Shown: one piece after another, positions 4,955 through 53,500 of the stretch
How the letters are laid out: the number at the start of each line of letters is the position of its first letter
How positions within the stretch are numbered: position 1 is the stretch's first letter
Assembly: GCA_009192285.1 (NCBI GenBank)
Contig: WBVU01000019.1
Coordinates: 434,001 to 498,000, forward strand
DNA from: Morchella semilibera
Lineage: Eukaryota > Ascomycota > Pezizomycetes > Pezizales > Morchellaceae
Reading direction: 5' to 3'
DNA: 64,000 nt
Program-made: the position numbers and the translations under genes
The notes under the pieces: model-generated
What the model saw: only the letters and a program-made list of their open reading frames with translations
The model's database searches: none
Told to the model about the DNA's origin: nothing

Positions 4955-5737
4955 TGTTGTAGTTAGGTATATAGTAGTTATGTAGGTACTGTTGGGGGAA
5001 TAGCTGTAGCTTCGAAATTTAAAGGGTGCGGTGTTGTTATAGGGACAAACTTGGTGGTAGGTGGTAAGGTGTGGGGTAGGTACTTTATCACCTGATTTGA
5101 GGGAGGGTGCGGGTGTGATGTCATTGGCTGATGACCACGTGTGCGTAGAATGAAATGTGCGGGCGTGGGGCGTGGATGTGGGGATGAGATGCTGATTTGT
5201 AAGGATTCACTTGTTGAGTTGAGCATTCATTTGTGCATACGGTCACAGGGTCGTGGGTTGGGTCATGGGGTGTCACTCGGTCGTGGTGATCACTACACAT
5301 ATGCGTGCCCTAGCTGCATTCTTACCCCGTAGTCCTATGGTAGATTTCACCCCGCTTTTTTCATACTGTACCTAGAGTACAATAAGGCCCAGTTGACGTC
5401 TGTTCCCAAAGAATGATCCTAGGCCCAGGAATCTGCATACTTGTACATACCAGGGGACCTCACCAACGACCTGCTGGTCTCTTACGGTAGCATTGAAGCC
5501 CTCATACCGTGTTTGGTGTTGCCAAACTGTTGCGGCCAGACTTCACAATATCCGCTAATGAAGAGTGTCTTCTCAAGCCGACACCATCACTCCCCTCCCC
5601 CCCTTTCCTATCCCCTTCTCTTTTCACCTCCCTAGTACCTCCCACTAGACACCATCTATCTACATACATACCTACAAGGCCTACACAATACCACTCATCC
5701 CAAGCTTATACAAACACAAACACAAACACAAACTGCA
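4955..5737. other. intergenic region with dispersed repeat
   Basis: It holds one copy of the 17-bp CGAGTGA-N7-TGA motif (5263-5279, minus orientation) and a segment (about 5259-5395) similar to 19252-19405. No convincing gene. The stretch before 5738 has an ACAAAC-repeat leader that looks like a 5' UTR. Confidence 0.5.
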
Positions 5738-5950
5738 ATGTGCTCCTGGATGCGCTACGTCTACGAATGCGGCTGCATGGGGTGCTACCTACCGACCCGG
5801 TTCTGCGGGCGGCGCTGCGAGGCGGGATACGGCGAGGTGGTGCTGATGGTCATCCACCGCTTTGTGTGCGGGCCGTGCAGCGACAGGATGCGCGAGGTGC
5901 GGATGCAGGCCATATTGAGGGCGACGAGGGGGTACCGGCGGGGTAGGTAG
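5738..5950 (+). CDS. small cysteine-rich protein, function unknown
   Basis: A 70-residue ORF begins MCSWMRYVYECGCMGCY and contains CGRRC and CGPC, about nine cysteines in all, followed by a basic C-terminus (RATRGYRRGR). An A/C-rich leader with repeated CAAACA directly precedes the ATG, as in fungal 5' UTRs. No signal peptide is evident, so it is probably intracellular. The cysteine pairs could bind zinc. I do not recognise the family. Codon use is GC-biased at third positions, like neighbouring genes, which supports coding. Confidence 0.5.
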   Translation: MCSWMRYVYECGCMGCYLPTRFCGRRCEAGYGEVVLMVIHRFVCGPCSDRMREVRMQAILRATRGYRRGR

Positions 5951-6949
5951 ATTTGGGAGGGATTATCTTTTTTTTTTGCACGTGCTGCTTTTGATGGTGA
6001 AAGGTTTGGATGATGGGTTGATTTGGGGGGGGGGTGGGGTTGTTGGTGCTTTGAATTATACTTTAGGGTTATTTTATTATTGCCGGTTGTGCCGATCATG
6101 TGGTGGCTGGTAGGAGCGGGGGAATGAACCACTGCGTATACTGGCAGTACCTACATGTAGTTATTCTGCTCTATCCACCGGGGCATTTATCTATTATTAC
6201 TTGTATGCCAATAATCTTATTATCACTACATGTACCTACATGTTCTTCTCGTGAACGCTCCTCTACAAGTGTGCAAACCGCATCTGTGTTATGTGAGTGA
6301 GGACTCATGATGCAGAGACAATTGAATGTATGGTAAGCATGGAATATCACTCGCACTCGCCAAGAACTTGTTTATCGACATCTGGCGATTGTTTTTTTTG
6401 TTTTTTGTTTACACCATTAATTGTATCTGGCCGCTAGGCTATGACAATATCGTACCCCCAGAACCACCCTCTCTTCCGCCGCCATCTCAACATAAGAAAG
6501 ACATATAAGAAAACATATAGGAAAAACATAGAACAACAGCCTCCTCCGTCTTCTCAATCCCTTGACATCTGGCGATTGAAACATGGCGCACCTTCGACAT
6601 CTCCCAGTTCTACAAAGTTTGGGGTGGGTTTATCTCAAAGTTTCAAACACGAGTGTACCTCTTTATGCCCCCGCCCCGGACAGCTTATACGGCCGCTACC
6701 AATGTTTAATGGCCTACTTTGGCTATCTAGAGCACAGAATGTCACGTCATCACCCAAGATCAAAGAATTTACAGGTTCACGGCAAACCAAGGGGGTAGTA
6801 ACAGTAGTGTACATAAGGTAAAATTAAATATCTATCATCCCATCACATCAGAGCCCTGAATCCCCAACAAACACGCGCACACAAAGAGGGGGGTGACAAA
6901 CAAACCATGAAATGAAAGTGCGAGGGGAAAAAAAAACCACACGATGTCC
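5951..6949. other. intergenic region with a retroposition-like insertion
   Basis: No conserved gene seen. It contains two TACATGTA sites (6152, 6227), a near-match to the CGAGTGA motif at 6337-6353, and a 15-bp direct repeat bracketing an insert with an A-rich end (listed separately). Open frames here lack recognisable domains. Confidence 0.5.
6377..6578 (-). mobile_element. short retroposed insertion with 15-bp target duplication
   Basis: GACATCTGGCGATTG occurs at 6377-6391 and again at 6564-6578. The roughly 170-bp insert between them ends, read on the minus strand, in an A-rich tail (A6 C A8). A perfect 15-bp direct repeat plus an A-rich tail is the usual signature of LINE-type target-primed insertion. 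The source RNA is not recognised. An A-box-like TAGCCTAGCGG lies close to the tail. Confidence 0.5.
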
Positions 6950-7735
6950 TCAAGCCCTCGGCGCCAGCCCAGGCACTCCCGCATACCTCTCCTCCCTCTC
7001 CGTCTTGAAAAACAGCTGCAAAAAGAACTCCTTGCTGTCCGCGTCGAAATGCGTCCAGAACTTCCCAGGGCTCCTATCGACCTCTCTCGCCTGGAGCTTG
7101 AAGCTGACAGTCTCGTACGGCTCGGCGGCAACCAGCAAGTACTGGTAGTTCTTGTCGGCGGGGATCTCCACGCGCTGCTCAAACGCCGACATGAAGCGGT
7201 ACCGCGGCTTTATCTCGGTGCCAATCTCGGGGTACTGCAGCTGGAAGAGCAGGCCGAGCTGCCGCGTCACTGGGTCGCGCAGCTTCGTTATCTTGTATCC
7301 CGGGCGGCCGATCTTGATGAGGTTCTTCCGCGGCGCGATGAGCTGCTGGCCGATCATGCCCTGGGGCAGGCCCGTGATGGGGTCGAGGTTGCGACCCTCT
7401 TTGGCTTCGCGCGCGGCGCGACGGGCGAGGTTGGTTTGGTGCTTGCGGCCTTGGGTGTGCGCGAGGTAGGAGCCATCGTTTTGGTGGACGGTCAGGCAGA
7501 GACGGCACTCGAAGGAGCCGACGTGGTTCTTGAAGCTGTCGGGTTGTTAGTCCTTGTAACATATACGGGGAAGAGGTGCCGGGGCGGAGAAGGCTTACAA
7601 GTAGGGGTCTTTGTCGAGGTCGATTGTTTCCAGGGCGAGCTTTCGGAGACGCTCACGGCGGTCTTGGTTGGAGGCGGAATGGGAGGCGACACCACCACCG
7701 CCGAAGCGGGAACCGACACGGCCTTCATATGCCAT
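6950..7735 (-). CDS. PRP11: splicing factor 3a subunit 2 (SF3A2/Prp11)
   Basis: Exons 7735-7599 and 7535-6950 encode 240 residues, with a 63-bp intron. The N-terminus MAYEGRVGSRFGGGG is diagnostic of SF3A2. The matrin-type C2H2 zinc finger is seen as FECRLC and then HTQGRKHQTN, at about residues 50-75. The second half (IGRPGYKITKLRDP, then FWTHFD and FFLQLFFKTE) is the conserved SF3a66 core. Family knowledge: it is part of the SF3a complex of U2 snRNP, acting in pre-spliceosome assembly in the nucleus. The animal C-terminal proline-rich tail is absent, as usual in fungi. A long open frame on the opposite strand (6944-7867) is a shadow. Confidence 0.93.
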
Positions 7736-8164
7736 TATTTATTATTCTGTAATGTTTTTTTTTTCTTTGGTGTTAAGAGAGTTATTTCTTTTGCTATAGC
7801 GCTGGAGGATTGGGTGGTGGTTGAATATCAGGGACCGGATGAGTTGTTGAGAGTAAAGTTTAGTTAGAGAGATAGGTGTTGTTGCTGCTACCGAAATGTT
7901 CCTCCTTTCAGGTATCCTCGCGTGCCTCGCCCGGGTAACCATTCACGACATCCCTGCACGTACCGGCTGCCAAGAACCCATTCGCGGGCATAGTGGGGAC
8001 AATGCATGGAGGAGTAAGTACAACTTGTAGTTGGAAGCTCACTCACCCACTCACCTCCCCAGTAAGCCCAAACATCAACCCCATCAATCAAAAACCCCAT
8101 CAACTCCTCACCACATCCATCAATCTCCAAATACCCTCATTCTCCCCCATATAAATACCGTAGA
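7736..8164. promoter_or_regulatory. divergent promoter region PRP11 / PUP1
   Basis: These 429 bp separate the start codons of PRP11 (-) and PUP1 (+). No further gene seen; it must carry both promoters. No specific factor site was identified. Confidence 0.5.
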
Positions 8165-9272: not shown

Positions 9273-12200
9273 TTGGTCGGTCGCTTGTTCTTCGTCTTTT
9301 TTAAACTAGGGTTGTGATGTGGAGTGTGCTCTTTGTCCCCTTGTTGATGCCCTGTGCAGTAAAAAAAATACACTGATTGACATGTGGGTTTTGTAGATGG
9401 GTGATCTGTGTTGGAAGAGAGAGTGTGTGATAAGAGGGGCATAAGTGACTGGTTTTTTGTGATACAATCTGCCTAACTACATGTAGTGAGATTCGCCCTC
9501 TTAATGTATTCTACCACCCCCAACCACCACCACCACCACTACTTACCATAATTAGCACAAGTATACAACATGTAGCTATATACGTAGAGTTGGCAAAACC
9601 CAACCATAAACAACGAGATATATAGTCTCATGATACGCCGCAAACCCTACCACACCCCCCACCCTCCCCCGCTTCTTTCTGCCCTGGGTCAATGATTGGA
9701 ACAACACCATTTTCGTCCCCCCGTAGCATATATGCGAATACGGGGAGTTAGAAATATCTGACAGCGTCTGATGAGAGGCAGATATCCGGACATCTAGAAC
9801 CCCCCTCCCCACCTTAGTTAGGACTGCCCCTACCATCCCCTTCCCTGCGGGCAGTGCGCTCCGTTTGCTGTACTAGTTCTACCAGAAAATGTATAAAAGA
9901 AAAGAAAAAAAAAGTTAGTCCCCCAGGGGTAGGGATCAAACCCACCCCCATGCGCGGCTGCGGAACCTCTCCACCACGACCACCCCATTTCCTCCACCAC
10001 CACAACCACTCCACCACAGCCTCTCAACGCACGTTGGTAGCAACCATCTTGGCCCCTTTAACCCCACCCGGGAAAAAATGATGGACTCAGCCCAGCACAA
10101 TTACATGTAACCCCCCGCCCCCCACCGCTAAAAGGAAAGGGCATCATGGATCATCACTCGCTCTGCTGTTCTCTGCACACGCGAGTGAGAGGCTGTGATC
10201 TTACTGGGTTTGGTGGTGGGGTCGTTGGTGCTGGTGTATAAGAGTAGGCTGGGGCTGGTTTCTTGCTGCGCATGGCTATGGACTGTCTTCGAGCTTGCTT
10301 GGAGATAGTAGACTGGACGGACTGGATGATAGGCTTGAGAATGTGGTTCCTCCCTCCTCCTCGTGGGGCTTCGCATGTATGTATGTATAGGTCGGGGCGC
10401 GCTGGTAAATGTGGCAAGGTACATCATATATAGGCTCGTGGCCGGGTGGGTTTATCTATATACATCCGATGATGCTCTCGTCGATGCGTTTTCTAGGCTG
10501 TGGTTACGTGTAGCTACATAGCATATGCGGGATCCTGGGGGCGATACATACTACATGTAAGTACGTATAACGTGTAGTCAAAAGTCCCGTGCCGGCGTGC
10601 TTTGTGGGATAGTGTAAAGAGCTATATATTGTATGTACATATGTCATACACCAAAACAATTATCTAGGGCTGTTAAAGATCCCCCCAAAAGATGCTCCAG
10701 TTGGGGTGTAAACATAGTCTCCCTCGATTTTACAAATTTTTAATGTTCTTGGTGAAGGCGTGCTACACTGGTACCAGAGCTTGTTTATAGGTGTGTTTGG
10801 GCGGCCGGCCTATAACCTGGATATATTTGTGAGCTCGCGCGTGCTGCAAGGACTCAAGCTAGAGGTCTTGCGCCCTAGGTACGTACTAGTCTTGCTGCTA
10901 AACTATACTGAAGCCTGTGAAGTAGGCAGAACTATGATCTAGTGGGCCCCATGGGCCCAGCAATGTGCTGCATGAGGACTTGATATATATTGGCACATGG
11001 GTGCAGATCCCGTTGCAAGCAGAACTGGAATGTATCTAGCCAATTGGCATTGCTTGCGCGCGAGCTGCCTTTGCTGGTGCAGGTTGAACTTACATGTATT
11101 ACAGCCCTGAATATTTAAAACATGATGAACTAATGCAGGAACTAACCGATAAAGAGTATCGTGCTACGTAAAGTTTTTTAGTTTCTTAGATCGAGGGTCT
11201 AGAAGAAGCTGGATCGAGGGGGACCTGGTTGTAAAATATTACTACCTGTAGCGCTGCGTCAGTATGGAGGTCCACCTTCGAAGCTAGGTATAACTAACAA
11301 GGACTACCGCCGTTCCGCACTCCTCCTTGCAATAACCCAAAGTGTCGCTTTCTTTGCGGCTAGAGTTATCTGTGATCATAAGATGTCACTCGGATATGAT
11401 AGCTAGACTTTTTTTAGATATGTCGGTGAAAAGTATGGAATGGATTGTCTGGCTCTAAGAAGTTATTGGGTCCCTTATCTGCCTACTATATCATGCACCT
11501 CACAAATCTGACATACTGTGCCACCCGGGGTTCTAGTGCCATTAACTATGACCTCAAAAGCCCCAAAACAGCTCTAGTGCAATAACTGGTCTATCGAGTA
11601 AACAGTTAGACATGCCTCGCTGTTGGTACGATTGGCTAGTTGCTTACATACTAATATATAAAATAACTTGTGTACAGCCTTGAGGGGCCGGTGGTTGAGT
11701 ACTAAGGCAATAATGTATATTATTTTATAGTGTACCCGCGTGTGTTAATTACCCTGCATGGCTACTTGGGGAATGACCTCTTGGTCGCCCAGAAGCCAAA
11801 TCAGGGGCGTGCTAGTTTACCTGCTCGTCTACCTACTTGCCAACCTGGCTTACAGACGGGCCTACTTTGAACTAAGAGGTTTAAATATAATTTTGTCAAA
11901 TACTTGCCTTGATTCCTTAAAATATATTATACTTGGCCAAGGGGATTAGGTACTACTCTATACTGCATGGTGACAGTAAATAAGGCGGCCAATGCCATAT
12001 GACATGTATACGAGGTTCGGAATGGCAGTAGTGGCCGTGGGGGGAGGGGGGAGGGGGGGGTGCCTAACATTAAGTGGCCCCGAGGGAGAAACACCCCCCC
12101 CGGGGCCAGGCAGTCTTTGCTGTTTGATACTCTTTGGTTATCCTACCAATCTGATAGTGATCGATGCCCCCTATGTCAGTGGTTTCTTGTTCAATCAGTC

Positions 12201-14464: not shown

Positions 14465-16344
14465 ATGGACATTATTTCATTCGTATCAAAGCTCCGCCAG
14501 GAGGCCCTCCTGCTGGGTGACTACAATGCCGTCCGAGGTATGTGCTCACGTCGGCTGGCAACTCTCCGGAAACGCCTAGGGCGTGCAAACAAGAAAAAGT
14601 TCGCGCAGCAGCCTCCATTGACTGCTGAGGATGTAGGAAGGGATCATACGTATATTGTCCCAGTTATCTCTATAGATCTATGGGATTGATGCTGAGCTAT
14701 CATGGGAACTTTAGGCATATCCATTTACTGCTGTATTCATCTGAAAGAGCATACTCCCATGCAATGCACCTGAAGTCATTGCTCGCCGATGATGCTTCCA
14801 CAGCTACCCCAGCAATGCGCGCACACTCTGTATCTCGCCTCCACAAGGCCTATACTCATGCAGCAGCACTGTGCGCTCTCCTCTCAGACCCTATCTCCAA
14901 AGCCACGGAGAAAAACGTATTGGAAGCTCATGCATACGCGACCTCTCTTCGCGGTTCAGAAGCTTTCGAAAAGTCCCATTGGGAAGCTTCAATAATAGCC
15001 TTTTCCGAAGCCAGAATCATCTACTCTGTCCTACTCAACAGTAATAAGAATGAGCTGTACAGAGATCAGTTGACTAGCACCATTGACCCAAGCATACGGT
15101 ACTCTGCCTACAAGCTACAGCTCCCTAGGAACTTGGATGTCGCCACAATCTCCCGAAAATACTTTCCGCGAGAACAGTCCGCAAGTGTGGTGGCTATAAT
15201 TGAAGCCTTGGACCCTAGTATCTTCTCCGAGTCTAGTGAGGACACGCCAATGGCTGGAACTGCGGGCTCCGTGTCGTCAGTCACTTGGCGCTCCCACACT
15301 GCGCCAGTGGATAACGCAGAAATATCAGTCGCTTTGGCAGGCGCTCAGGCTGTAGAAAATGCTTATTACGCCAAAATACCGGAAGAGGCAGCTTCTACTG
15401 AAGCATTTGATGATGTTTTGGCTGCATGGCAGGAAGCGGTTGACGCTACGAAGAAGGCGATTGATGACTTACAGGCAGAGAATGTTAAGATGGAAGATCA
15501 GCGGATGCAAAACCTGCAGCTGACTTCGACAGTGGTCAACTACTCTTTAATATGCTGGAGAGTTGCGAGAAATCGTGTCATGATTCAGGGTATCGCGCAG
15601 AGTGGGAAGAAGGGGAAAAAGGGTGAGCCTGAAATTAGGGTTAAGAAGCTCGGACACTTGAAAGAGGAGGTAGCTCTATATGATGCTATCTTACAGGTAG
15701 GCTTACTTATCCTTGGTTTGAAGTTTTAAACTCACAGCGCCCTCCAGAGTCTTGAACAGGTCTATGATCTTCCGGGTGTCGCTCGTGATGAAGATTTCAT
15801 TAAAGAGCTTGACAGCAAAAAGGCCTATTTCTCGGCCTCCAAATGTGCAATAATCGCACAATCGCACGCACTCCTCTCCAACCGTAGAAATGCGCTAGCC
15901 CTCTTTAACCGCGCTCTCTCTTATGTTTCCACCCCCCACTTTTTTTCCGCTTCTACCCCCTCCCACAAGGGGCTCGAAATCGATCCAGAAACCGCCTCGG
16001 AAATACGCACACGTCTCAAGGGTGAAGTTTTGAGGTTTCAGGCACTAGTAGAGATGGACAATATCACTGCTAAAACAGCTACGAAAGGAGCCAACAGCAG
16101 TGTTGTCCTGGAGAGTCTAGACAGGTACCCTGAGGGTAAGGACTTCGATTTTGAAAATGGCATTGTACAGTGGCCACCAAAGGTTTCGCCAGTACCGGTA
16201 AAACCGGTGTTCCTGGATGTTGCATGGAACTTTATCGAATACCCGGGTGATGGCGGGCCAAGGGCGGTTGTAGAAACCAAGGAAAAGGAGAATAAAGCAG
16301 AGGCGAAGAAAGGCGGTTTCTTGGGGAGCTTGTGGGGAAGGTAG
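14465..16344 (+). CDS. SRP68: signal recognition particle subunit SRP68
   Basis: Exons 14465-14649, 14715-15696 and 15748-16344 total 1764 nt, or 587 residues. The start MDIISFVSKLRQEALLLGDYN and the following YCSRRL-like block (GMCSRRLATLRKRLG) are the RNA-binding N-domain. After intron 1 the protein continues HIHLLLYSSERAYSHAMHLK. The second intron is resolved by family similarity: LYDAILQ joins SLEQVYDLPGV at acceptor CTCCAG, whereas the nearer CTCACAG would give a stop. The C-terminal half (QSHALLSNRRNALALFNRAL, then WNFIEYP) forms the TPR-like SRP72-binding part. The tail is Lys/Gly-rich. Family knowledge: SRP68/72 binds 7S RNA and targets nascent secretory proteins to the ER. Confidence 0.92.
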
Positions 16345-20633: not shown

Positions 20634-20825
20634 CCGAGTGATAGTTCGTGATGCACTTCGCTCTAAAATAAGATACGGTAGAGATAATCCCTTTGACTGA
20701 GATAGTTCAACTGTTTCCCCTTATAATAGATAGATTTAAACATATCAAGCTTGCTAAGCTGTTCTATGGTCTAAATTCCCCTCTAGCAATCTGCTCACCA
20801 ACTGTAGTCACGGCTTATCACTCGG
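20634..20825. mobile_element. candidate MITE with CGAGTGA-type terminal inverted repeats
   Basis: The left end reads CCGAGTGATAGTTCGTGA and the right end, on the other strand, reads CCGAGTGATAAGCCGTGA; 15 of 18 positions match. The element would be 192 bp with no coding capacity. No clear target-site duplication was found, so transposition is inferred from the inverted ends only. Confidence 0.4.
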
Positions 20826-20990
20826 CGTGGGGTTCTACGGGGCGGCACAGCGACACAAGACAAAGTTGCGTAAGCTATAGGGTAGAGAGGAGTTTGTTGA
20901 TCCGAACCGCATCCACCCATGTGGAGATAGTTGCTCTGGGCTCTGGGCTCTGGGCTTTGGGCTTCTTGGGCCCGCCTGCATGTAAGTGTA

Positions 20991-21043: not shown

Positions 21044-21720
21044 GTGAGCGGGCGGGATCGTTGCAATTTACGCCTGGCCTTGTGTAGTCTTATCTTATCT
21101 GTAGAATAATCCTTTTTTTGTTAGAGGCCACGGCATGCCTCGTTTTTTTTACCCGCTCGGGCGGTAAGGGGGCCTGGTGGCGGGAACTATTGCGGATGTG
21201 GGTGTTGCCTCGGGGATGAGAAATGCCCCGACCTTTGATGGTGTGGGGCCTTGATTTTAGCAGAGTTGGGCGCAAATATCCAAAGAAAACTCATTACCTC
21301 TTACACCCGGCCCCATTTCCAACAGAATATTCAGAGCTAGACCGAAGACCTTGCTGCGGTAGAGGTGGGGATATCTTTATATCGGGGAGTAGTCGGGTCT
21401 ATAGCCTTGAATTTAGGCCGCGCGCTGTGATTATTCCCCAGCTATCGACCGGGCAGAGGGGTGCTGAAGGTTTTTGTTTTCTCCGGGGTTTGCTTGAGGG
21501 GGGACGCGACTTACATATCTTAACATGTCATGGTACTTATTAGGCCTCTACAGTAGATTTAAACTAGTGGTAATACATAACTGCCTGTTTGCAGTAGATT
21601 TGGTCATGATTTATCACTCGGAATATTATTCCCGTTACATGACTTCTGTTCATCGATCAATGAGGAATATTCGAATGCAAAAAATCTTTTATTATTAATT
21701 ACAGTAAATGTATTTACAAG

Positions 21721-25088: not shown

Positions 25089-27106
25089 CCGATGTTTCTC
25101 CCCCTCCTCCTCCTTTTTATTGTATTTCTGTTTTTCTGTTGCGGCGTTTGGGTATAAAAAATTGGGAAAAGTGGGTTTATGTTTTTTTTTATTTGTCTTT
25201 TTATAGAGTAGATATGTAGTGTAATGTAGATAGAAATACTATACCAAGGAGCCAGCAGAATCTAGCTTCCCCTCTCTCACACCTGCGCATACCTAGTCTC
25301 TCCCGCGATGTAGTCTGTAGACAGGACATAAAAACGAATTAGTTGACCCCCAAGTCATCCCAAATAGGTAATCGGCCATACCGAGTGATACAGCATGATG
25401 CGGCAGTTAGGCCCAGTGCACATCAACCAAAACTACATGTCTTTGGTAACTGGGAGCTATGGCGGATCTACTCATAGAGGGTGAGCGGGAGTACATATCC
25501 ACCCTGAAAAATACCATTGGTTGGGGGCCTGTAATAGTGTTAAACTAATCCTATCTAAGGAACTACGGGTCCTTTCTCGGTTGCCATCACTTGGGTTTAG
25601 TGGCCATCAGCCAATAGCATTTTTGGGGGTGGAGTACTCCCGCTCACCCTCTATGAGTAGATCCGCCATAGAACAAGAGCACAGGCGGAGTACTGCCCAA
25701 GAATATTCAGCCCTTCACCGAGGGAACAGCGTCGTCCCTCACTCTTGAACCGCTGTCTGTAACATCTTTACGAGTACGCACAAGCATGGAGATGAAGAAC
25801 CTGCACAGGTAAGTAACGCACACAATGCATCACAACTAAACAACTAAACAGCGTCACAACTGGACTCCACCGCACATAACAAAGAAGCGAAGGGAAAGAA
25901 AAATATATATATAAAATAAAAAAGCAGTTCCTCACTGTTACGGTATTTATTAATTCGCCCGTAACCGCAACAGCGAGTAGTCTGCCTCGACCCCAGGAGG
26001 TGGGGCCGGCCAAAGTACAGATATCCGGATGTTTGCTGGATCGAACGGGTGTTGTCCAGCGTGGGAGGTCGACGCTTTAACCGTTATGAGACCGGACCTC
26101 ACGCTGACCAGTCGCGGGAACTAATACTTGGGCCCCTTCCCTATGCATGCACGGTACCGTGCCCCCTCGTGCCAAAGGAGATTACATACTGTGGCCAAGG
26201 TGATGGGTGGAAGGGGGGGGGGGTGTACGTACAAAGTACGTGTACCTACATCTTAACATAGGTGCTTACAAAGTACTTGTATGTACTTACTTCTTAGGTA
26301 GTAGGTTGTAGGTCTTTGACGTAGCCTCACGCCCATCCCCTACGGACAGCCTTCTATTCACCATAGGAGATTTGGGGAATACCTATGTACTTACATGTAC
26401 TTAGCCTTAACGGCACAGGAAGCTTGATTGATCGAAACCTCTATGCGGGTGTTCTGTCCCGCTACGTACTAACACTAATCAACCCTGATCTATAAAGTGA
26501 GTGGTAATATGGCTAGATGCTCCCCCCGAGTGGGGGGGTATAACACTTTTACGCGAGTTTGTTTAATGCGGTACTTTAATTTGATATTCATGTATTATAA
26601 TTATACGGACCGGAGTGTTGGGCTTTTATGGGCCTAGCAGGTCTGTGGGAGCAATGGGATTGTGACAACACCAGGAGGAGACGCATACTTCTATATGTAG
26701 GCACTAATGTACAACCTACTAACAATTACATTAGCTTAATTAAATCACTTAGCACATTTCTAAAACTGACAAATTATGGCTCTATATATTAACTGCTTCA
26801 CCAAAACGGATACCTATATATTATTTTACATTGTGTTTTTTATTTGCAATGCCTGCCACTTGTAACAGGTACACATCTTTCAATAAGAACGAAAAGTCAC
26901 TATCCCTCATGTGTTATCACTCGGTCGAATTGCACACATGTGCGATGTCTACTACCAAGGATCCTCGGGACTTACATACTAAGCACATGCATCCTTTCAA
27001 TTTTCACACAAGGTCAACCATCTCAGAAAGAGAAAAAGAGACTACTAGGAACTACATGTAGCTAGTATAATAAAAATACTCCTTCTAAAAACAAGATGAG
27101 CTACAT
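25089..27106. other. 2-kb intergenic region with a foldback element
   Basis: No conserved gene. It holds a 215-bp element with 38-bp inverted ends (listed), CGAGTGA copies at 25382-25398 (+) and 26907-26923 (-), TACATGTA at 26392 and 27053, a tRNA-like relic near 26012-26100, and repeated GTAC-rich words at 26224-26300. Confidence 0.55.
25457..25671. mobile_element. MITE-like element with perfect 38-bp terminal inverted repeats
   Basis: 25457-25494 and 25634-25671 are exact reverse complements over 38 bp. Each outer end reads CTATGGCGGATCTACTC inward. The 139-bp centre has no ORF. TA lies two bases in from each end (CTATGG / CCATAG), so a Tc1/mariner-type TA target site is possible. Perfect ends imply recent insertion or selection. 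Confidence 0.65.
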
Positions 27107-31173: not shown

Positions 31174-31973
31174 ATGACGACCCCCCCAACGTCTCCCAGC
31201 GCGCCCATCCGGGGCCCCGAGTTCTGGCGCCGCACATTCTGCTATGTGACCGGTCTTGGCCTGTCACCTGAAGACCGTGCAGCCTATGAGGCCGATAATG
31301 AGCTCCGAAAACAGCAGGACGAGTGCCGGAGGTGTGAGAAGAATCGGGATTACCTCCTTCGCTACAGTAGGAGCACCGGTGTAAATAGGCAGGGGTGGAA
31401 ACGTGCTGATTCGGGTTCGGAATAGGTCCAATTGTGAGGTTCATGCTGAAGAGTGTACAGCAGGTGGGCGGCGACTTGTCGGCCGAGAACATCAAGTGTC
31501 TTCCATGCGATGGGGCACTGCGCACGGGAGGATTCTCACCGCAATATGGGATTATGCTATGCCAGAATAAGCTGGATAGAGGAAGAATGGAGGATACATT
31601 GGCGCACGAGATGGTGCATGCGCATGATCACCTAAGGTTCGACGTAAATTGGGATGATTTGAAGCACCATGCTTGCTCGGAGGTAGGTTCAATATATATA
31701 TGGTATTCCAGGATAATAGAAAGTCAGGCTAACCGTAGTAATAGATTAGGGCTTCAAGCTTAAGTGGAGAGTGTAGGTGGACTAGGGAAGCGTTCACTAG
31801 AGGAGTGTGGGACTTCACACAGCAGCACCAGGCCTGTGTAAGGAGAAGAGCTACAATATCGGTCTCTCTCCACCCGAAGTGTAAGGATGATGCAGAAGCG
31901 GCAAAGATTGTTGATACAGTTTTTTGATTCTTGCTTCGCTGACACAAGACCATTTACGGATATCTATCGATAG
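31174..31973 (+). CDS. ATP23: mitochondrial inner membrane protease Atp23, 3' frameshift
   Basis: Exons 31174-31366, 31426-31682 and 31745-31973. The catalytic site is [16 protein letters not shown], a zinc metalloprotease HExxH with the family-specific context. The N-terminal part has [16 protein letters not shown], and exon 3 starts [12 protein letters not shown]. At 31920-31925 there are six T where five are expected. As given, the frame stops at TGA (31925-31927) after IVDTVF. Removing one T restores [15 protein letters not shown], the usual Atp23 ending, at TAG 31973, giving 225 residues. Family knowledge: Atp23 processes Atp6 and assists ATP synthase assembly in the intermembrane space. 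Loss of about 15 terminal residues could be real, but a homopolymer error is likelier. Confidence 0.85.
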
Positions 31974-32357: not shown

Positions 32358-33802
32358 TTAATTTTTACTCGTAGATCCGGAACTGCTGCTGCTACCTGAG
32401 CGTTTTGTAAATTGAGGTTTGTTTATACAGTGCTTCAGAATCCAAGGATGTTTTACAACATCTTCTAACGGAATTCTCTGGTCAGGTTTGATGACGAGAA
32501 GCTAGAGAGGTCAGCATTGTTTTTATAACGGTCAATGATCTCGAGTATACCTTTTTGATTAGGTCTCCTGCCTCGGGACTGACAAAGTCTGGGATTTTCA
32601 TATCTGCCCTGACAATCCTTCTCTGGGTTTCAATAGGGCTATCCTCAAACGGCGCCGCCCCTACAAGGAACTCATAAGTTAATACGCCTAGAGACCAAAG
32701 GTCCACTTTCTCGTTATGGTAGTGACTGCCGTTCAACATCTCTGGGGGAAGATAATCGAGAGTTCCGCACATTGTGGTGCGCCTGTTGATTCCGCAATGT
32801 TAATCTACGCATAAGTATTATTAAGCTGGAAGACCGACCTTTGATTTGGGGCATGTACGCTCCAACCAAAATCTGAGATTTTGATTTCACCGTGAATCCC
32901 AACAAGAATGTTCTCGGGTTTAATATCACGATGAATAACATGCTTCTTATGTAAATACATTAATGCGGCAGCCATTTGTGCAATATACTGAGCGAAAAAC
33001 CCCATTAGCACATGGTTGGATTTGGTTGCGGGAGGGCTGGTAACATACCTCTGCTGCGCGTGGCTCCGGGAACCTTCCCACCTTCCTCAACATCTTGTAC
33101 AGCTCTCCTTGGCCGGCAAACTCTAGAATTAGAAACACTCGTTTTGAGTCGTGAAAATGGCCAAAGAGCCTTAGAATATTAGGATGTCTCAGATTTGACT
33201 GGATCTCTATCTCCCTCCTGAGCTGTTTTTCAACTTTCCCGCTCTGTAGTTCACTTTTGTGGAGAACCTTCAGAGCACAAACAAAACCGTTCTTGCGCTC
33301 TTTAGCCAAATAAACTCGTCCGAACTTCCCTTTCCCCAACGGGCGGCCAATTTCGAACATCCCCAGATGAAATTCCCGAGGAGTGACAGCTGCCGGGATG
33401 CTCTGCGAGGTCGTGGAGCTATTAGAGCGCCTGGCCTCCGAGGGCTCGATAGCTTTCTTTGGGGGTGATGGGGGTGGGGGCATGTCCGAAGGGACCCATT
33501 TGTTGTTCGCATTATTTTGATTATGGACAGCGATTTTGAGAAGGGGGTGTCTAGCAGGCTCTTGTCGTTGGGCCGCCTGCTGTTTATCCTGCAACGATGC
33601 GAGCGCTGCCGCTGCCGCCCCAGATGGTATTATAGCTGTCTAATGAGGTTTAGTTTATTCAATTATTCCCGTTTAATCCATTTGTGGTGATCCATGCTGG
33701 GGGTAGTAGTACCTTAGATTTGTGGTTAGCGCTAGGGTTCACGTTTTCCCCGTTGTCAATAGAGATCCCAGCGAGACGAGCCTCGATTCCGCGAAGCGCC
33801 AT
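32358..33802 (-). CDS. IPL1: Aurora-family serine/threonine kinase (Ipl1/Ark1)
   Basis: About five exons; start [20 protein letters not shown] at 33802. A variable Pro/Ser-rich N-terminus precedes the kinase domain: [18 protein letters not shown] (P-loop), [10 protein letters not shown] (VAIK lysine), [14 protein letters not shown] (catalytic loop), [11 protein letters not shown] (DFG), and after an intron [16 protein letters not shown], the Aurora-type activation loop with its Thr pair. The end is [20 protein letters not shown], followed by a Ser-rich tail. DFGWSVHAP with RTT(M/L)[10 protein letters not shown] is diagnostic of Aurora kinases. Family knowledge: catalytic part of the chromosomal passenger complex, controlling kinetochore attachment and cytokinesis. 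Confidence 0.93.
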
Positions 33803-36204
33803 TATTACTGACTTTCTTGTGGTATGGTTAGTCGGCTTAGGTTCTCGAGCGGTTGTGGGGAATAATAGACGTGAGGCAGAAGGAGAAGGGGTTGAGGCGG
33901 GATGTCGAAGTTTAAGAGGCAACACCACCTGGCGGCTGTTGGTTGCCACGACAACAGTTTTGTGTGTTTGTAAACGTTCGCATCTAGCGCCAACCACTAT
34001 GACTTGCAGATCAAGCAATGTCAATTGGGTGGTAACGGCATGTGTGCGTTTCAGTTCAACGTTGATTTCTAATAACTTTTTTTTTTTTTTTAAATATGTC
34101 CGCAGTCGCTGCTTGAGGATGCTATGGTCTCCAAAGTATCCGCACCTACTCATTCATCACAACCACCCGAATAAGATGCAGCCCGAGTCTATAAACCAGT
34201 CCGATGCTTTCATGAGAATGCTTATGCGAAATTTTCTGTAAGAAGGACTTCTAGTTTTGTACCCGCTCTACATAAGTATTTTACATACATTCCATCTCTG
34301 CGATCCGTGGTATCTCCCCATGCAGATCCCCGGTCCTATCGGCGTCGAAGCCGAGTAACTGGATTCTGGTTGTACCGCAAACAAAGTTACACCAGCAAGC
34401 CAGCACGCTTCATAAGATATCACTCATCCGACGCATCCTGAAGTCAGCTGTTCTATTTGAGCAAATATGTCGAGCGCCAATCAACCAGATCTGTTTCCAA
34501 AGGGTAGGCCGATCGATGCAAATGGCCAGAACCTGCCAATGAATGAATGGCCCTAAAAACAGTGGCTATTGGCGCAGCAGATGACAACTAAGATCTCTAA
34601 CCAATAACAAAAAATCTTTTGATGAAGAGTTTCGTGTCATTAGTCGATTCCAGCCACACTTAGCCCTATTGAGTCTAGATCACTCGGTTACAGGGCTGAG
34701 GCTCAGCGAAAGTCAACAAAATATCGGACCGTTTCAAGACCCCCATCCGCTGTTTAACATTTCGTCAACGGGTGGGTCTCGGGCCTCGAGTATCACGATC
34801 CATGGCATGCCATGTCAATCCTCTCCCTAGGTGGGCGTCTGTGTCGAACGTCAGATACCGCAAAAATTAAGGTTTGAACGGAGATCCTAAAGCTCGACCT
34901 ATATGGAGAAATTACATGTAGTTATAATTTGCCGGGGGTGGGGGTAGTGGGAGAAGGGGCGCGATCGCGGTAATGGGAGCCGTGGCGGTAGTGCTATGGG
35001 GGGGGGGGGAGGAGGAGGAGGTGGGTGGTTGTGGTGCTCGTCGCAGTCAATGGGGGGGGGGGGGGAGGAGGAACCGGACAAACAGTCCCCCCAGTCTTTG
35101 CATGCAGTAAGTAAGGATTGTCTGTCCTGACGAGCAGCAGCAGAAGAAGCAACGACAACGAGAAGACGATGGATGAGGCTGGGAAATAGCTAACCGCTTA
35201 CACGACATGCAGTAAAGTGCTGCATCGAAGACAACCGCAATGGCCAGGCTTGAACCGCCATTTTTTGTTGCGAGTGAAGAGATAAAACGACGACGACAAG
35301 GTCTTCTATTCAAGTCGGGCTCTCTGCGGGAGGAAAAAGTCGTTTGGTTTTCTCAACTCGAGGGGGAGGTTCTTGGCGGACTTGGCAATTGTCTTAGGAA
35401 GAACTTCGGTACACGCCCTGTTCAAGACGGTGCAGCATCCTCCCACACACTTGGAAGCCCCCCAGTAGTGGTAGGCCCTCCTCGAAAAAGATGGACTCCC
35501 CAGTGTCCGCCCTTCCGCGTTTTCTTACCCCCCCCTCCCTCCTCCTCCTGCTCCACACAACCACACCCTCCACACCCTCCACCTCAACCACCACGCTCAT
35601 CCTCCTCCTCCGCCTCCTCTTCGTCAGTCCTCCTCCTTCACGGCCACTCAAAGCGACAACTCCTCCTCCTCCACAACCGCCTGGACTACCCGCATCTCCG
35701 TGGTTTTAAATCGCCGAGACGACAACAAGCCCGCGCCGTACCGCACAACACCACAGCACCAACATACAGGTACTTCTACTCTTTTTTAACCTGTTAGGTA
35801 CGCATCGCCTCCACCCCCGTCCCGGTACGCTGGGTCCGTGCTTCTCTATTGCGTGAAATATTTTCCCTGACCCCTCCCTCGTCGTCCTCCTCCTCATATC
35901 ACTCCCTCAACCTCCCTTCACTCAACTTCTCCCTCCCCCTTCCACATTCTATCTGCGCGCTACCCTCCTCTCGATTCAACCCCCCCCCCCCCATTCAAAA
36001 GTACCACAACTACCCCCAATCACAACTCCATCCCAACTCATCACTTAACACCCAATCAAATATACCAAATATATCAAATATATTTTCCCTTTCTTGTCGG
36101 TTTCTTATTTCCAATTTTCGTTATTTGTGAAACCGGCTCACACTTCACTCAACTGTCAGACTCTTATCCTGCCTTTCCCGGTGGTTCTCAGATTATCGAT
36201 CGCC
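33803..36204. other. 2.4-kb upstream region of IPL1 and ITC1
   Basis: Divergent intergenic DNA. It includes a CGAGTGA-like motif at 34410-34426 (first base differs), TACATGTA at 34913, poly-G runs near 35000-35066, and a CT/CCTCC-rich stretch at about 35520-36100 that is probably the ITC1 promoter and 5' UTR. The 185-codon frame at 35240-35797 is low-complexity and has no domain; it was not accepted. Confidence 0.5.
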
Positions 36205-42660: not shown

Positions 42661-44425
42661 GGACGTATCATAACGTCCACACCTTGGAATCAGGGTGTTT
42701 TATTAGCAGTTAGAATACTAGATGTGTTCTAAACTGTGTAAATCATCCCTTCCAGAGTAGCTTTGGCCTCCATCCTTGACCAGTCCCCTTAAAGACAACC
42801 AAACGTATGCCTATCGCGTTGGGTTGTGTTCAGGGGCATATTGCGCCTATACATACATGTATTTACATTTAGTTACATGTAACCGTAGATACATAATAGT
42901 ACCGTAATCACCCACATCCACGTACATACAATACATGTATGCACCAAACCTTCTCGCATAGCCCACACTTACGATGCCCCATATGTGACAGAGCATCAAA
43001 ACAACCGCTTCCCCTCCTTCATGTCTAGAAACCCCCGAAATCGCTGTCATCAAGCCATCACACTGAGAAATCCGACGTAAGGTTGCCCAGCACACGAAAT
43101 TAGTCAACGGAACCTTGATCCAAATGTCTGAAAAATCTTCAACCTGAACCCCAGATATAGACTGAAGAGGAGTCGGTCCATCTAATGAACTTATTCACAT
43201 GGATTAGTTGTGTACAAATAGTCTGAGCAGCCTCCGCTATACCTATACAACCCAGTTCGACCCGGCCTAGTGCGGAAAACACAACAAGCTCATGGGGAAT
43301 ATGGGTTATAAGGATCCAAGTTGGCCCAGACCTTGTCAACTACTACAAATACCAGTTTATGAGCTCGAATTACGGTTCTGCGCAGCACAATATATCTAGG
43401 CATCTCCCCCATGTCCCCACATTTCCACGAGGCTGTAGCCCCATTGCCGAGAAACCAACCACATAGCCATTCTGGAACCATGTTAGCATTGAGCACCCTG
43501 GGGGTTGGCATCGGCGATTCATGTTCACTGCGTAATGACCAACCTTTAACCATATCAGGTTACCAACAGTTTTGGGGTCATGTTTCATCCCCATACCGGC
43601 CCTATGCTACTTGATTTCTGTCCTAAAGGTTGGATATCAAGGTTCTTGGTTCACAACCAGGCGTCGAGGACTGCGCGAAGGACCCAGGCCTACTGGGGAT
43701 CCCAGGCTCGGGCCCACCCACCCGCACCACTGGTGCACCGGTCTCTCCGTGAGCGAAGCCCAAGGAGGCTAATTCCTGCCCAGGGGTGATGAGCGCCCTA
43801 AAGCCCCTATCGCCGCCGTGAGTGTTCTCCAGGAGATAAAAGGCTTGCTTGTTTCCTATCATTAACCATTCTAGTCATTCTAGAAGCCTATCTTCGTAGG
43901 CAGGCCCGGGGGCCCATCCAGCTCCAACCAATACCCATTACTGGTGACAAGAGCGCCCCCATCAAGGAGTCTTCCCTCTCTACATCTACGATCATGGCGC
44001 AACAAGGACTACCACACCCGAGGGGGAAAGCTACCTCCGGCTTTTTCCTACGAATGACAACTGCTTCATGAACTATCACTCGTCAAATACTAGCGGTCAG
44101 AGCTCTGAATGATAAGGCCATTTACCAATGGATACTGCTATCAAATGAACGGGTTGTAAAGTTCATTTAGAATTCTGTTCTGAGATATACCCATAGTGTG
44201 ATTATACCTACTACGATGAGTCCAACTTGCAGTCTGATAAGTAGATAGTGGTTCACGGGCTATTAAAAGATGGGTACACGAAGTACTGTGCCGTTTAGGT
44301 GAGATAGCTCCACCAAACCAGGAAGCAATAAAGCTAATATTTTTAAAAGCTTGTCAGATAAACCCAGCTGACAATAAATCTACAGTACGGTATAGTCTAT
44401 CTAGTCTATTACCACTCCTACCCCT
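42661..44425. other. 1.8-kb intergenic region
   Basis: No gene recognised. Contains three TACATGTA sites within 90 bp (42854, 42874, 42932), the densest cluster in the window, and a CGAGTGA copy at 44066-44082 (minus). Confidence 0.55.
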
Positions 44426-45031: not shown

Positions 45032-48000
45032 TTTTTACTTATTTCCTTTTTGGCTTGGTTCTAAGTGGTTGAGGTTTTGGAATTTGGGAACGTTCGTTGT
45101 GGATGTGGTGAGGGGGAGCTTGTTTATATGGATGTGGTTTTTTTTTTCCTTCCTCTCTGGAGTACTTAGCGTCATAATGGTATTAGCTAAACCCCTCACG
45201 ATGTGAACCCTGGTGGCATGGTCCCAGAGCCTAGCAACGCAAAAAACCCTAACCCAGTAATAATCATCTTAAGAAGCTTTCTCCGGCATTTCCCCTGCTA
45301 AGAGAAGCAAGTGCTTGGCCGCCCGGCCTGGCCCGGGACCTGCCGGGCGGAGGCAGCCGATACCGGTGGCGAGTGATTTCTGGTGACTGAGATAACTTTT
45401 AATTCATTAACTGTAGGTGACCGAGCTAGTTCTAAGAAGCCCTAGCTACATTTTAGTTTGAATTTTTGAGTAGTGTGGTCCCGAGACATCGGAGTTAAGA
45501 TAGCTTAGTTCGTGCAATCCTACTAGTACCACCACTAGTGATCCCAAATCAGCTCGAGCATATGTTTTCAGGCTCGACCCAAGCCAACCGGAGTTGCTCG
45601 CTTTAAGAAGGAGTTAGAGTTATTAGGAAACCTTCTTTTGATACTGCTGTTACTCACCTGCAGCCCCCACCCATAACGTTTGGCAGAGGAATATTTTACT
45701 CTTTAATCATGGCCTAGCTCGAGCCTTACATCCTCTATCCCGAACGCCCTAGCAAATAGAAGCTTACGCCCCCCACCTTGAGCCTGTCCGTGGACTATAT
45801 TATGCTTTCCGCGTCTAAAAGTAGTCGCCAGCGAAATTCGTCCTGTGAATGGGTTGGATGGACAATCCAGGGGTTGCGGGAAGTGTGGCCGGTTATTTTT
45901 TCTTAAGAAGATTTATACTTAGCTTTCTACCCTTTTACGCTGTCTGTTGCTGGGAATAGAATGGCGTTTGGTATTTTATGGATACGTTAGGTTTTAGCTA
46001 ACTTTTCGACCGTACGTGTAGTCAATTAGTCTACTTCTCGACGAACGCACGTCCTTACCTCCTACTTACAGCCCTTATAGCCTACCACACGACGCAAAAG
46101 ACACACAGCTAATTTAGCATCTCTAGAGCGTCCGAGAGGGAAAGAATAGACCAGAATGGCGATTACCTTATAATTAAGGTCCTTTAACATTGCAGTGAAG
46201 GCAAAGATCTATTAGCCCCGGCCTTTTTGATACTTTAGATCTGGCCATTAAGAAAAGAATAGAAACAGCGTACTAAAGAGCTGGTCTATAGGCTCACCCT
46301 CCAACTTTCGTATAAGATAAATTTAAACCTCTAGTTAGTACCGCCTGACGAGTATGAAGTATAAATAAATAGATAGCTACTGCCTGACGTCAGGATCACA
46401 ACTCATCACTCGTGCCAAGAGGTCTCGCGGTGATCGATTGATTGATACTTCATCGCGGTGATCGATATTAATTGGGATTACAAATAAATTAGTGGACAAG
46501 TCTCTAATGATATAACAGCTCACAGTAAGTTTATGTGTATAATATAATACGTTAGGTACCAGCAGATATCCAGCAGATAGAGCGTATACAAACGTGTCCA
46601 AGAACTCCGAGACTGGATGAGAATAATGGAGAAAAGGACAATCTTAGCCTCTTAGGTCATGGTTATATGAATGGATCTCGTCTCTCTTGCTCTGTGTATG
46701 CAGATATGCAATGATATGGACATGGGTACACCGGTGTGGGGGATATATATTGCATTGAAGATATCTTGGGTTTTGGGGCCGATTGTTTGGTATCTAATTT
46801 GTGGGTTTCGTGATCAGAGATCTAGACGCTTAGAATATCCGGTTGCTTGCTTTTGGTTAGATCCGTCATAATCACTCGGGGGCAGCTGAATCACTGCTAA
46901 TCTAATTCAACCGATTCTGGTATACGGAGGTCTCCAACCCACGTACCACTATTGAATATGAAGATATCCGAAAGCCTCCTCAGGACTGATATTCCCCACA
47001 AAGATCAGGGCTGCAGCTGATAGTCTAAAAACTAGGAATAATTATCAAGACCCCCCTAGTAGGCCTCTTCACGCTTCGCATAGCGGCTTATTGGACAACG
47101 CCCCCACAAACTGAAAGCTCATAAACCTTAGTAACAATAACAGTGAGTGAGGTCCTAGGTCTGTGAGGGATGGGTGGTGGTTGACGATTGTGTCATGTCA
47201 ATGTGTAGAGTAGACTATGTACGTTTTAAATTGACTTGGCTCTCCATACCATACGCCCTGATTCACCACCCGGACGCCCACGCAGCGTAAAATATAGTGT
47301 GATCGAGTGAGAATGTATGACTGCAACCCCCACCCACACAAGCAAGAACCTTCTAAACCAGTGCATATATACATACAACCGACCACCCATCACGTGCGCA
47401 ACTAACTACAACTAAGGGACCTTTAACTTAACTCCTTGTAGTTTCCTAACGTTTCCGGACTGGTCTGTGCATACCACCAAAATTTATATAGGAGAGGGAC
47501 CAGCAACATCTTGCCGACCATGGTTTATAGGGAAAGCTTCATCCGATGTTTTACCCCAGGTTTTCTACCTAGGCCCTGACCACCTACCGAGTGCTGGGAC
47601 TGCGTCAGTTTTTATCTATTCCACCACAAGACGTGACTGGCCTAAGCAGGGGCCTTTTCCAACCTGCGGATGTATCGAAACAAAGCATGGACCTATCGTC
47701 ATTGGCAACTATAATGGTGTGTAACACTAAATCTGGTTAGATTACTCTAGTGAGCATGTATGAGCGCTACGAAATATGTCTTAGAATCTTCGTAGCTGCC
47801 AGGAAAGCCCCACGAAAACAGAAAAATTACGACTGCATGTACTGCACTAGGTACATGCCGAGAAACCGAACCTCTGCATGACGTATGTGGCTAGGGCTTG
47901 TATTTAGCTGTACCTACATAGGTACATGCACGTGTGCATGTAGGTACCCTACTCATACTATCGGCCTATGCAGATTTAAGGGCACTTATACTCACTCTTG

Positions 48001-48437
48001 GTAGTTGACTTCCCAGGACCAATACGATTACTGATGTAAACAAAAAAAAAAACTTCCAGGACCACAACACGGACGAGTGACCAGTTGTGACGGCAACCAG
48101 AGAATCTTGAAATCGGGGTATCCTTATTATCTTCCTTCTTATAGACACAAAAGAAAATTAAGAAAACTACCCAGCCTGAACCCATTCCTAAAACCCACCG
48201 AAAAGAAAAAGAGAAAGAAAAAAAATCCCCTGTATAACCCAGACTAATGGGCAATTCAAAAACAAAGGAAATATTACACAAATACCGACATTACCATGAT
48301 GTGATACTGAGAATAATTTAGAAAAATAAATTATGAAGGCAAGGAAAAAATAATCGATCCCTCGCAATCCACCCAAATAACCCAAAGCCAACCCAAGGAG
48401 AAAAAGAAAAGGAGAACTGGACACCACCAAGCAACTG
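45032..48437. other. 3.4-kb gene-poor region
   Basis: No conserved gene. It holds CGAGTGA motifs at 45370-45386 (+), 46396-46412 (-) and 47304-47320 (+); the first two face each other about 1.04 kb apart. A direct repeat TCGCGGTGATCGAT occurs at about 46427 and 46452. Short frames here show no domain. Confidence 0.55.
45245..45255. promoter_or_regulatory. telobox-like motif upstream of APT1
   Basis: AACCCTAACCC, matching the telomere-repeat/Tbf1-type site, lies 214 bp upstream of the APT1 start. Function is inferred only from motif knowledge in other ascomycetes. Confidence 0.3.
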
Positions 48438-50422: not shown

Positions 50423-50425
<3 letters not shown>

Positions 50426-50456
<31 letters not shown>

Positions 50457-50561
50457 CCCTCGCACGCACGGTGTCTGGGAGTGGGGCTGAGCACGCGTGA
50501 CACCATTTAATTCTTCATTTAGAGAGCACAACACCTCCTTTTTTTTTTTTTTTTTTTTTTT
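50426..50561. repeat. pair of long poly-T tracts
   Basis: About 27 T at 50426-50452 and about 25 T at 50537-50561, separated by 84 bp. Lengths are read directly but are prone to sequencing error. Confidence 0.85.
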
Positions 50562-53500
50562 CTCTCTTGCAGAGTTTCTGAAAAAAAGGCGTGACTCATT
50601 TTGTTTGTGAAGCCAGATTCAAGTTACACAGAGAGACCTGCAAAGTAGTACGTGACTGGGGGAGTTTTAGGTAAGATTCCCCACCCACTTTACTTGGAAC
50701 TCCCAGGTTAATAACTATATGCGTACCAACCGGGTCTCTATGCCAAAAACAAAAACAAAAACAAAACACTGCGATGATCCCGTTCTTTATTTTTATTTTT
50801 TTCACCCTTCCTTCTGACAGCTGCAAAACCTCGGATGGCAACGCACATACACGAGGCCGTGGCGTCATATGTGTGTTCCAGTTCGTCCTCAAATTCCGGG
50901 GTTAAGGTTTACCTTGGCGGGGGGTGATTTATGTACCTACTTGATCTAAAAGGTGCTCTGTAGGAGAAGTTGATCCGTGAGTGAATAGGAATCCCAGTAT
51001 GATCTTGAATGAGGCTAGCTGATCTGGGTTCCATGTGGGTGTGTGGCTCAGTTCAGTCTGGTTCAGTCGGTTAACAAATGGTGATAACAGCGGTCTTGTA
51101 ACCATTGGCTGGAGATGGGGGGGTGATATGTGTGGCACACAATAGGTACTTGCTAAATCCATATGGTGCTACTTACTCATTCACTCTGTATCGTTCGGCG
51201 CAGCTATGACCCAGACGCTCCAGACGCCCGACCAGATCCTCATATATACTCACAGCTTCTGCGTACCGCCTAATTAACTGACTGATTGATTGATGGCTGT
51301 GATACCTGGGTACTCACTCTAGAGAACTGACTAGGTCAATCTACTTACCTGGTGGTTGACTAACAGTAGGTCTAGGTAGCCAGCTGTCACGCTCTATTTA
51401 TATAGAGGTACGCTCGTTATATACCCAGACACCTATTTCCACCACTAGCACCACTAGGTACCGTTCGCCCGCAGCTCGCATGAGTGCATTCCTTCGTCTC
51501 ATCCCATTCCGTTACAGTCATGTCACACCACATACTCGAGGGTTTCGGATTAAAAACCCGTGCCGTTCCCAGAACAGGTCGGGAGTATTGACTGTGCTAC
51601 ACCCGCCCGGATAAGCTGGCGGCCGGGGGGTTGGCGGTGGTGATTAGTAGCGAGGCAGTGGTGGATTATTAGGCCTTACTAATTATTGGGTAGTAGGTAG
51701 TGGCTAGTGAGGTTTTTCCGGGCGACAAGGGGGTTTTGGGGAAGGGTCGGACGCAGAGTTATCTTGACTTTAATTTCGTAACCATTGATAAGTTAACGTG
51801 AACGTGCCCATGATCCTGGGTAGACTTAGGCCATGATACCACGTGGTAACGGCGATGGTAGATCATATGATGCATAGGAGCTCTAAACAAGAGCTTTGAA
51901 ACAATCCTCTGTGTCTTATCCTAGGGAATGGTATCGGACTTGTTGCTTGATCTAGACAGAGGGCAGCGAGCAGTCTTGAACCGAGGATCGTAGATCTGAA
52001 GATTATTCTGGAACAAGATCAAGGTTAATCAACATACCATATAATCCACATGTAGGTAGACACGCGCAAAAAGGATCAGCACAGGTAATCCCCGCCGAGC
52101 TAAGGTAGTTGGGTTGATACCCCAATATCGAAGTCATGCTGCGTATAATGAAGGTTATACGTTGTAATCCTCTGGGGGGATCTCCCTTTGCACAAAAACT
52201 CTCCGATAAATACTTACATATAAGGGTTTTTTTATAGTAGGTTCCCCAACCTTCTTGACTTTACCAGATTTCCGTAGTAAGGTGCTTATATTTTATACTC
52301 TTTCCTGGATCCCCTCCACCACCCCATATCCTTAACTAAAATCCTACTTACTATTCAGAGCCTCCACTTCTGTTAATGAAGGGGAGCCAAAGTCGTGGAG
52401 CGGTAGAATATTTGCGGGGAAGGCTATTTCCATGAACCCTAATACATGTATGCTCTATATGCATCAAATCTAAAGTACATCACACGATATCACTCGCATC
52501 TGGGAGCCAACACTAGCCAGGAGATTCATTCTTCCCCTTCTTTCTTCTTATGTGCATGCGCCTTCCGGCTATGAAACCACCCTCTCCAAGTATGCTTAGT
52601 CACTCCATCACAAATCCGCATGTCCCATTCAGGCGCCATCCAGTGCTGGAAAACTTCCCCACAGGAAAGAAACCCACGTGGTCACACACATTCCAAACCA
52701 GGAAAATTTAAGAAACAACAATTAGTATATCCCCTGGACCGTGTCCCCGCAGGACTAGAACATACGACCCGCCCATCCTCGTAAAGCTTCATCATCAACA
52801 GAACTCAGACACCTGGAAGCCTGCCCACTAGCCGCGAGATCGATTACCGTGGATACAGTGGGTTCCATAGTACTTCCCCTTCTAGTAAGCTCTTCGCCAT
52901 ATATAGGACTAAACAAATTCTCTTGAACCTTCTTTCGTGCTATAAGGCACGTTAGCTAATACAAGACTTGATGGCGAGGGGGACGGTTGGTTATTTGAGG
53001 TCTTAATAATTCTTATACACCTCACTCGACTAGAAGAGACGCCAGCAGCTACACTAATACATTCCTTACTACGGTTCCATACATTATACAGCCTACATAT
53101 AGTTGCATATCCTGCGCGGCAGTACCCGAGCGGAGGGAAATACGCGGCTTTAGAGGGTTCGAAAGATTTTACTCTCTAGCCCGGACAGTTTGGAAAATTG
53201 GGACGCAGATCTAGATTGGAGCAGCCTGGATGGTGCGCTGTCTACATGGCTATATGGTAAACTTCTTAGAAATGAGTGGCCACATATGCCCCCCCCCTAG
53301 GAAAAAGAAAGTAGAGGTTTAAATGTCAAATAATTCGGTTGACTAAGTCGGTTTATCATTAATACTAATACATAAACACAATGTAGAATTAGATTGTTGG
53401 GTCGGGGCCCAACAAGCGTATACCCGAGTGAGAGTTCGTGACGGGAACCCTAGGCAAACATATACCGAACTGAGCGAGTGAGCTCCTGAAGTTTCTTTTG

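Follow-up and report, generated by a model that had tools for sequence, protein, structure and literature searches.

A spaced motif recurring between genes of Morchella semilibera, a probable binding site of a two-part protein

In a stretch of 64,000 nucleotides from Morchella semilibera (assembly GCA_009192285.1, contig WBVU01000019.1, positions 434,001 to 498,000; the whole stretch is called the window here), a 17-base-pair (bp) spaced motif, CGAGTGA-N7-TGA, recurs between genes, which raises the question of what keeps so many copies in place. An earlier note on this DNA offered two explanations, the ends of a decayed repeat or miniature inverted-repeat transposable element (MITE) family, or a dispersed binding site; the analysis described here supports the second and speaks against the first. 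The motif is probably (with a probability of roughly 0.72) the maintained binding site of one two-part DNA-binding protein that would have a genome-wide role at thousands of sites between genes. Exact copies in the window number 17, whereas 100 dinucleotide shuffles gave a mean of 0.09 and at most 2, in agreement with the chance expectation of about 0.1 in the earlier note.

The genome-wide scan that the note had proposed covered 56.76 Mb in 23 contigs, the window lying within contig C16, and gave a count far from random expectation. Exact CGAGTGA-N7-TGA occurs 8,560 times (4,278 and 4,282 by strand) as opposed to 74 times (31 and 43) for the reversed pattern. A tighter form, CGAGTGABNNNNYRTGA, occurs 7,105 times versus 14 in the reversed control. 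Some contigs are apparently duplicated, since the pairs C9/C10, C12/C13 and C21/C22 have parallel coordinates and resemble duplicate or allelic copies, and the haploid motif count is therefore somewhat below 8,560. The one 10-kb pair from C21/C22 that was compared (L034 and L035) is 100% identical and is thus uninformative on selection.

The anatomy of the motif was followed in a 314-kb sample made up of the window plus 50 kb adjacent to it, 70 kb of contig C2 and, from contig C1, 100 kb and three separate 10-kb stretches. In this sample 65 half-site pairs have the 7-bp spacing, and none of the other spacings between 0 and 20 has more than three, which upholds the earlier claim of a fixed spacing. 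Across the genome, 7,105 of the 7,478 half-site pairs found over eleven spacings are at N7, with 141 in the reversed control over the same spacings. Alignment of 82 copies used a pattern fixed at positions 2-7 and 15-17 that permitted C or T at position 1, and eight of the loci in it were selected for carrying the motif. Position 1 is C in 73 of the 82 copies and T in nine. A stands at position 8 in one copy and at position 19 in three, and there is a pyrimidine at position 13 in 73 copies and a purine at position 14 in 81. The resulting extended form is [C/t]GAGTGA-B-a/g-NN-y-Y-R-TGA-y-b, which is weaker than the consensus in the earlier note. Within the motif, RTGAY is repeated 10 bp apart (positions 4-8 and 14-18), and no conservation was found outside approximately positions 1-20 in alignments of 56 and 82 copies. 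The motif therefore combines fixed bases at a fixed spacing with free flanks and use of both strands, as is characteristic of a dispersed binding site.

Of the 72 sites in the 314-kb sample, 20 belong to the window. All 72 were classed as intergenic, with none in predicted coding sequence (CDS), under each of three gene-finder settings, whereas 16 of 48 two-mismatch chance matches in the same sample do fall in CDS. The statement in the earlier note that copies lie only between genes and in no coding exon thus holds for these sites. The gene models came from a home-made finder that predicted 89 to 131 genes in the sample, depending on the setting, with untranslated regions excluded. Some shortage in CDS is expected on its own because TGA stands in two of the three forward frames of the motif; given this effect, simple arithmetic puts the chance of 0 of 72 near 6e-9. 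The copy at 31087-31103(+) lies inside an antisense stop-to-stop open reading frame (ORF) at 30965-31627, but the true gene there, which encodes a Peptidase_M76 domain and presumably resembles ATP23, begins at 31174(+), so that the copy lies just upstream of a gene. This gene (31174-31763, +) and a protein kinase gene in pieces (32482-33639, -) are real genes, lying between 31 and 34 kb in the window, and the finder overlooked both at its strict setting.

A decayed repeat or MITE, of which the motif would be the best preserved part, agrees with the high copy number in the genome and with the inward orientation of some close motif pairs. This origin is hardly credible, however, and was rejected, because the flanks share no sequence (56 and 82 copies), none of the 72 sites lies in sequence repeated within the 314-kb sample, and the decayed tail is missing; the seven inner bases are also free. 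A decaying family would leave a long tail of progressively worse copies, and no such tail extends past one mismatch. For the tighter form, the sample contains 59 exact, 27 one-mismatch and 48 two-mismatch copies versus 0, 2 and 52 in the reversed control, which places the two-mismatch copies at chance. Unshared flanks, the lack of a decayed tail, rigid spacing and absence from CDS argue instead for a maintained binding site.

Copies of the motif also cluster at preferred spacings. Genome-wide, 162 tandem matches lie 0-30 bp apart where density predicts about 20 to 33, and convergent pairs at the same distances number 65 where 10 to 17 are expected; these expectations assume an even spread across 60-100% of the genome. 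In the 94 tandem rows listed, a gap of 1 bp occurs 18 times, one of 2 bp occurs 11 times and one of 0 bp never; of the 48 convergent pairs listed, 10 have a gap of 9 bp. The 94 listed divergent rows include 30 full pairs, and the gap in these has no sharp peak. Close pairs are thus tandem, convergent and divergent, and the inward-facing arrangement to which the earlier note drew attention (20635/20808 and 45370/46396) is not general. The preferred gaps would fit proteins bound next to each other, though small duplications, tandem or inverted, can also give rise to them.

It is conceivable that the motif is a self-accumulating sequence, favored by a recombination or repair process that spreads copies through unconstrained DNA. 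Many exact copies, few near-misses, absence from predicted CDS and an even intergenic spread would all suit such a process; the distribution of sites over intergenic DNA in the sample is close to Poisson (ratio 0.97, 75 intervals). There are parallels in bacterial DNA uptake sequences and the cyanobacterial HIP1 element, which likewise have thousands of exact copies, few near-misses and an even spread over unconstrained DNA, but the morel motif differs from these in being bipartite with free inner bases, eukaryotic and absent from predicted CDS. We consider self-accumulation very improbable. We know of no such process in fungi, which counts against it, and the preferred pair spacings better suit bound proteins. 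It is also at odds with two transposon-bearing 10-kb stretches that lack any copy. These belong to a part of contig C1 (approximately 622,000-786,000) that is poor in both this motif and a second abundant one described below, and from which three 10-kb samples were read (L019, L020 and L021). Two of the three have retrotransposon or Tc1-type transposon domains and 0 motif copies, while the third has ordinary genes and one T variant (TGAGTGA-N7-TGA).

The position of the motif relative to gene ends, a check that the earlier note had proposed, bears on two further explanations. Distances were compared by permutation within intervals for 68 of the 72 sites with the strict gene set, and the P values are uncorrected for the several bins used. 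There is a weak excess past stops and a deficit near starts, and the spread is otherwise almost even. Seventeen sites lie 100-400 bp beyond stops versus 10.9 expected (P 0.025), and three lie less than 300 bp from starts versus 7.7 expected (P 0.027). Under the strict setting, 17 sites are between convergent genes (12.9 expected) and 11 between divergent genes (20.6 expected); under the laxest setting the corresponding numbers are 18 (16.0 expected) and 12 (15.2 expected).

Reb1 acts as a bound roadblock that stops RNA polymerase, and a protein bound to the motif might similarly halt RNA polymerase between genes as a terminator behind them. The excess beyond stops, together with the convergent excess and divergent deficit, is in keeping with such a role. 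We nevertheless regard it as improbable, given that these leanings shrink as the number of predicted genes grows, that many copies are distant from gene ends, and that sites show little preference in orientation relative to the nearest gene (12 same and 8 opposite, less than 500 bp from stops). Copies downstream of the large ribosomal RNA gene would be expected of a Pol I or Reb1 terminator site; a conserved ribosomal RNA word had no match in the assembly. Alternatively, the motif could be an ordinary promoter element through which one transcription factor controls a large regulon, as its strict spaced form would allow. The copy at 31087(+), which is approximately 70 bp upstream of the Peptidase_M76 start and runs contrary to the deficit near starts, fits a promoter element as well. 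This explanation is very unlikely in view of that deficit, which was obtained with imperfect gene models, and of the density of the motif, since the sample, with 72 sites and 89 to 131 predicted genes, has about 0.55 to 0.8 sites for each gene and these are evenly spread.

A link to tRNA genes or TFIIIC was rejected, as the 314-kb sample holds 72 sites and no transfer RNA (tRNA) gene was found in it. A shift in base skew at the motif was weak and inconsistent, with a z score for the G-C difference of 2.7 within 300 bp and -0.5 within 1,000 bp.

Several observations weigh against a maintained binding site with a genome-wide role. One-mismatch copies of the motif are above chance genome-wide, with 4,777 versus 466 in the control. 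Up to 1,455 of these (8,560 minus 7,105) may deviate at the three degenerate positions, and a large share probably consists of the T variant at position 1, which in the 314-kb sample has seven copies versus 59 exact ones; most other single-base changes have 0 to 3 copies each there. Some close pairs could be small tandem duplications. Relative to genes, placement is weakly non-random, the leanings being small and shrinking under laxer gene models, and the proposed role is read from the breadth of occurrence. From the features described above we infer that the motif is bound by a protein, that its copies are kept by selection, and that the protein acts genome-wide rather than on a single regulon.

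The proposed protein would have one part that reads CGAGTGA and another, about one helical turn further on, that reads RTGA. With RTGAY recurring at 10 bp, both contact parts of the protein could lie on one face of the helix. Such a protein could mark points between genes as an architectural, boundary or general regulatory factor. Abundant sites for general or architectural factors are already known as a kind from animals and yeast, and the morel motif would be a variant of this kind in its strictness and its even intergenic spread in a fungus. The CTCF-type insulator sites of animals likewise share a long and strict motif, found in thousands of locations, chiefly off promoters and on both strands; the morel motif has other letters and a fungal host, and its boundary activity is conjectural. 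CTCF itself is not known from fungi. The Reb1 and Abf1 general regulatory factor sites of budding yeast are similarly strict, often bipartite, genome-wide and intergenic, but their letters differ, and the yeast sites are concentrated in promoters whereas the morel sites are not.

The likeness to CTCF sites can be carried further to an architecture in which a two-part protein, possibly of the CENP-B type, at thousands of intergenic sites divides the genome into domains in morels and perhaps in other Pezizomycotina. This remains speculative, and we think it unlikely to hold in full; if true, the strict maintenance of the set of sites would leave hardly any decayed copies. Animals offer well-known examples of abundant, strict binding motifs that are independent of promoters, but filamentous fungi are hardly known to have them. 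The morel motif lets one ask directly about insulator-type genome architecture in fungi, and with several thousand near-invariant copies it is a ready probe for fishing out its protein. Among the matches listed in the open-licence literature, titles and abstracts contained no description of CGAGTGA-N7-TGA, which does not prove its absence.

CENP-B recognizes a 17-bp bipartite box, so the architecture of a CENP-B-type protein fits the motif. The CENP-B box has the same length and likewise has two contact blocks, separated by about one helical turn, and a conserved tandem-helix protein of the CENP-B type is present in the morel genome. The letters of the motif do not match the box, however (82-copy consensus compared by eye with the box), and the morel sites are dispersed singly rather than in satellite arrays. 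The Tc5-type helix domain had 44 matches in a search of the genome, of which two loci were read (L036 and L037). The best match, on contig C3, is an ORF (L036:334-1425, +) with that domain as its sole Pfam match and thus with no Pfam transposase domain match; the piece at L037 carries the helix domain, plus a single match far under the cut-off. The L036 ORF is 95% identical to a 539-amino-acid protein of Morchella conica in which a CENP-B_N and a Tc5 helix domain stand in tandem; the match of this protein to the CENP-B structure 1hlv spans both (E 1e-9). The ORF has 621 relatives at E up to 0.001; the named ones among the 120 listed are from Pezizomycotina, where names were recognized, and the DNA-binding region is almost invariant in five aligned relatives. 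Abp1, Cbh1 and Cbh2 of S. pombe are described as pogo-type transposase-derived proteins (PMC10799480). That the conserved tandem-helix protein of the morel binds the motif is a tentative and rather doubtful assignment based on analogy; if it is the binder, the motif should abound across Pezizomycotina. A search for a many-fingered C2H2 protein gave 22 single matches, with 150 of 201 candidates scored, and nothing decisive.

The second abundant motif is the palindrome TACATGTA, which occurs 137 times in the 314-kb sample, 136 times between predicted genes, once in a predicted intron and never in CDS. Its one-base variants have 2 to 29 copies each in the sample. Flanking bases extend it to TANNTACATGTANNTA, a form found at 3,317 places genome-wide versus 251 for its reverse, and the window has 23 cores between 6152 and 63038 versus 0.78 expected. 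The palindrome leans to divergent regions, opposite to the CGAGTGA motif (Fisher P 0.002, 0.004 and 0.04 under the three settings), and the distance between the two motifs showed no clear link. After both were masked, no further hyperabundant words as strong were found. The similar abundance of this palindrome suggests that more than one such code is present in the intergenic DNA of morels. The palindrome itself is not new, since it has already been described as an abundant upstream or promoter motif in Phytophthora, and also as the preferred site of Irx homeodomains and the footprint of Tc1 excision in C. elegans (PMC3520976). In the morel it may be an Irx-type homeodomain site or a Tc1 excision footprint; a Tc1-type transposase piece is present in the genome (L021).

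Within the window, a pattern scan located the exact copies of CGAGTGA-N7-TGA at 5263-5279(-), 10144-10160(-), 10182-10198(+), 11376-11392(-), 20635-20651(+), 20808-20824(-), 21604-21620(-), 25382-25398(+), 26907-26923(-), 31087-31103(+), 44066-44082(-), 45370-45386(+), 46396-46412(-), 47304-47320(+), 48074-48090(+), 52480-52496(-) and 53425-53441(+). All 15 copies listed in the earlier note were recovered at their coordinates and strands, and its "at least 15" is true as a lower bound; it had overlooked 10182-10198, which forms a divergent pair with 10144-10160, and 48074-48090. The copy at 25382 lies 293 bp downstream of the stop of a diphthamide-synthesis gene, and that at 26907 lies 183 bp beyond the stop of the next predicted gene, which is convergent. 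The three near copies in the note were also recovered: 34410-34426(-) is the T-for-C variant at position 1, 6337(-) ends in TGC where the consensus has TGA, and 31067(+) begins with A where the consensus has C. Two further T variants, at 815-831(+) and 6294-6310(+), were absent from that list. Elsewhere in the window, an SRP68 exon at 14629-15729 has 94% identity to M. importuna across 89% of the query; Choiromyces and Tuber are the next of the named matches.

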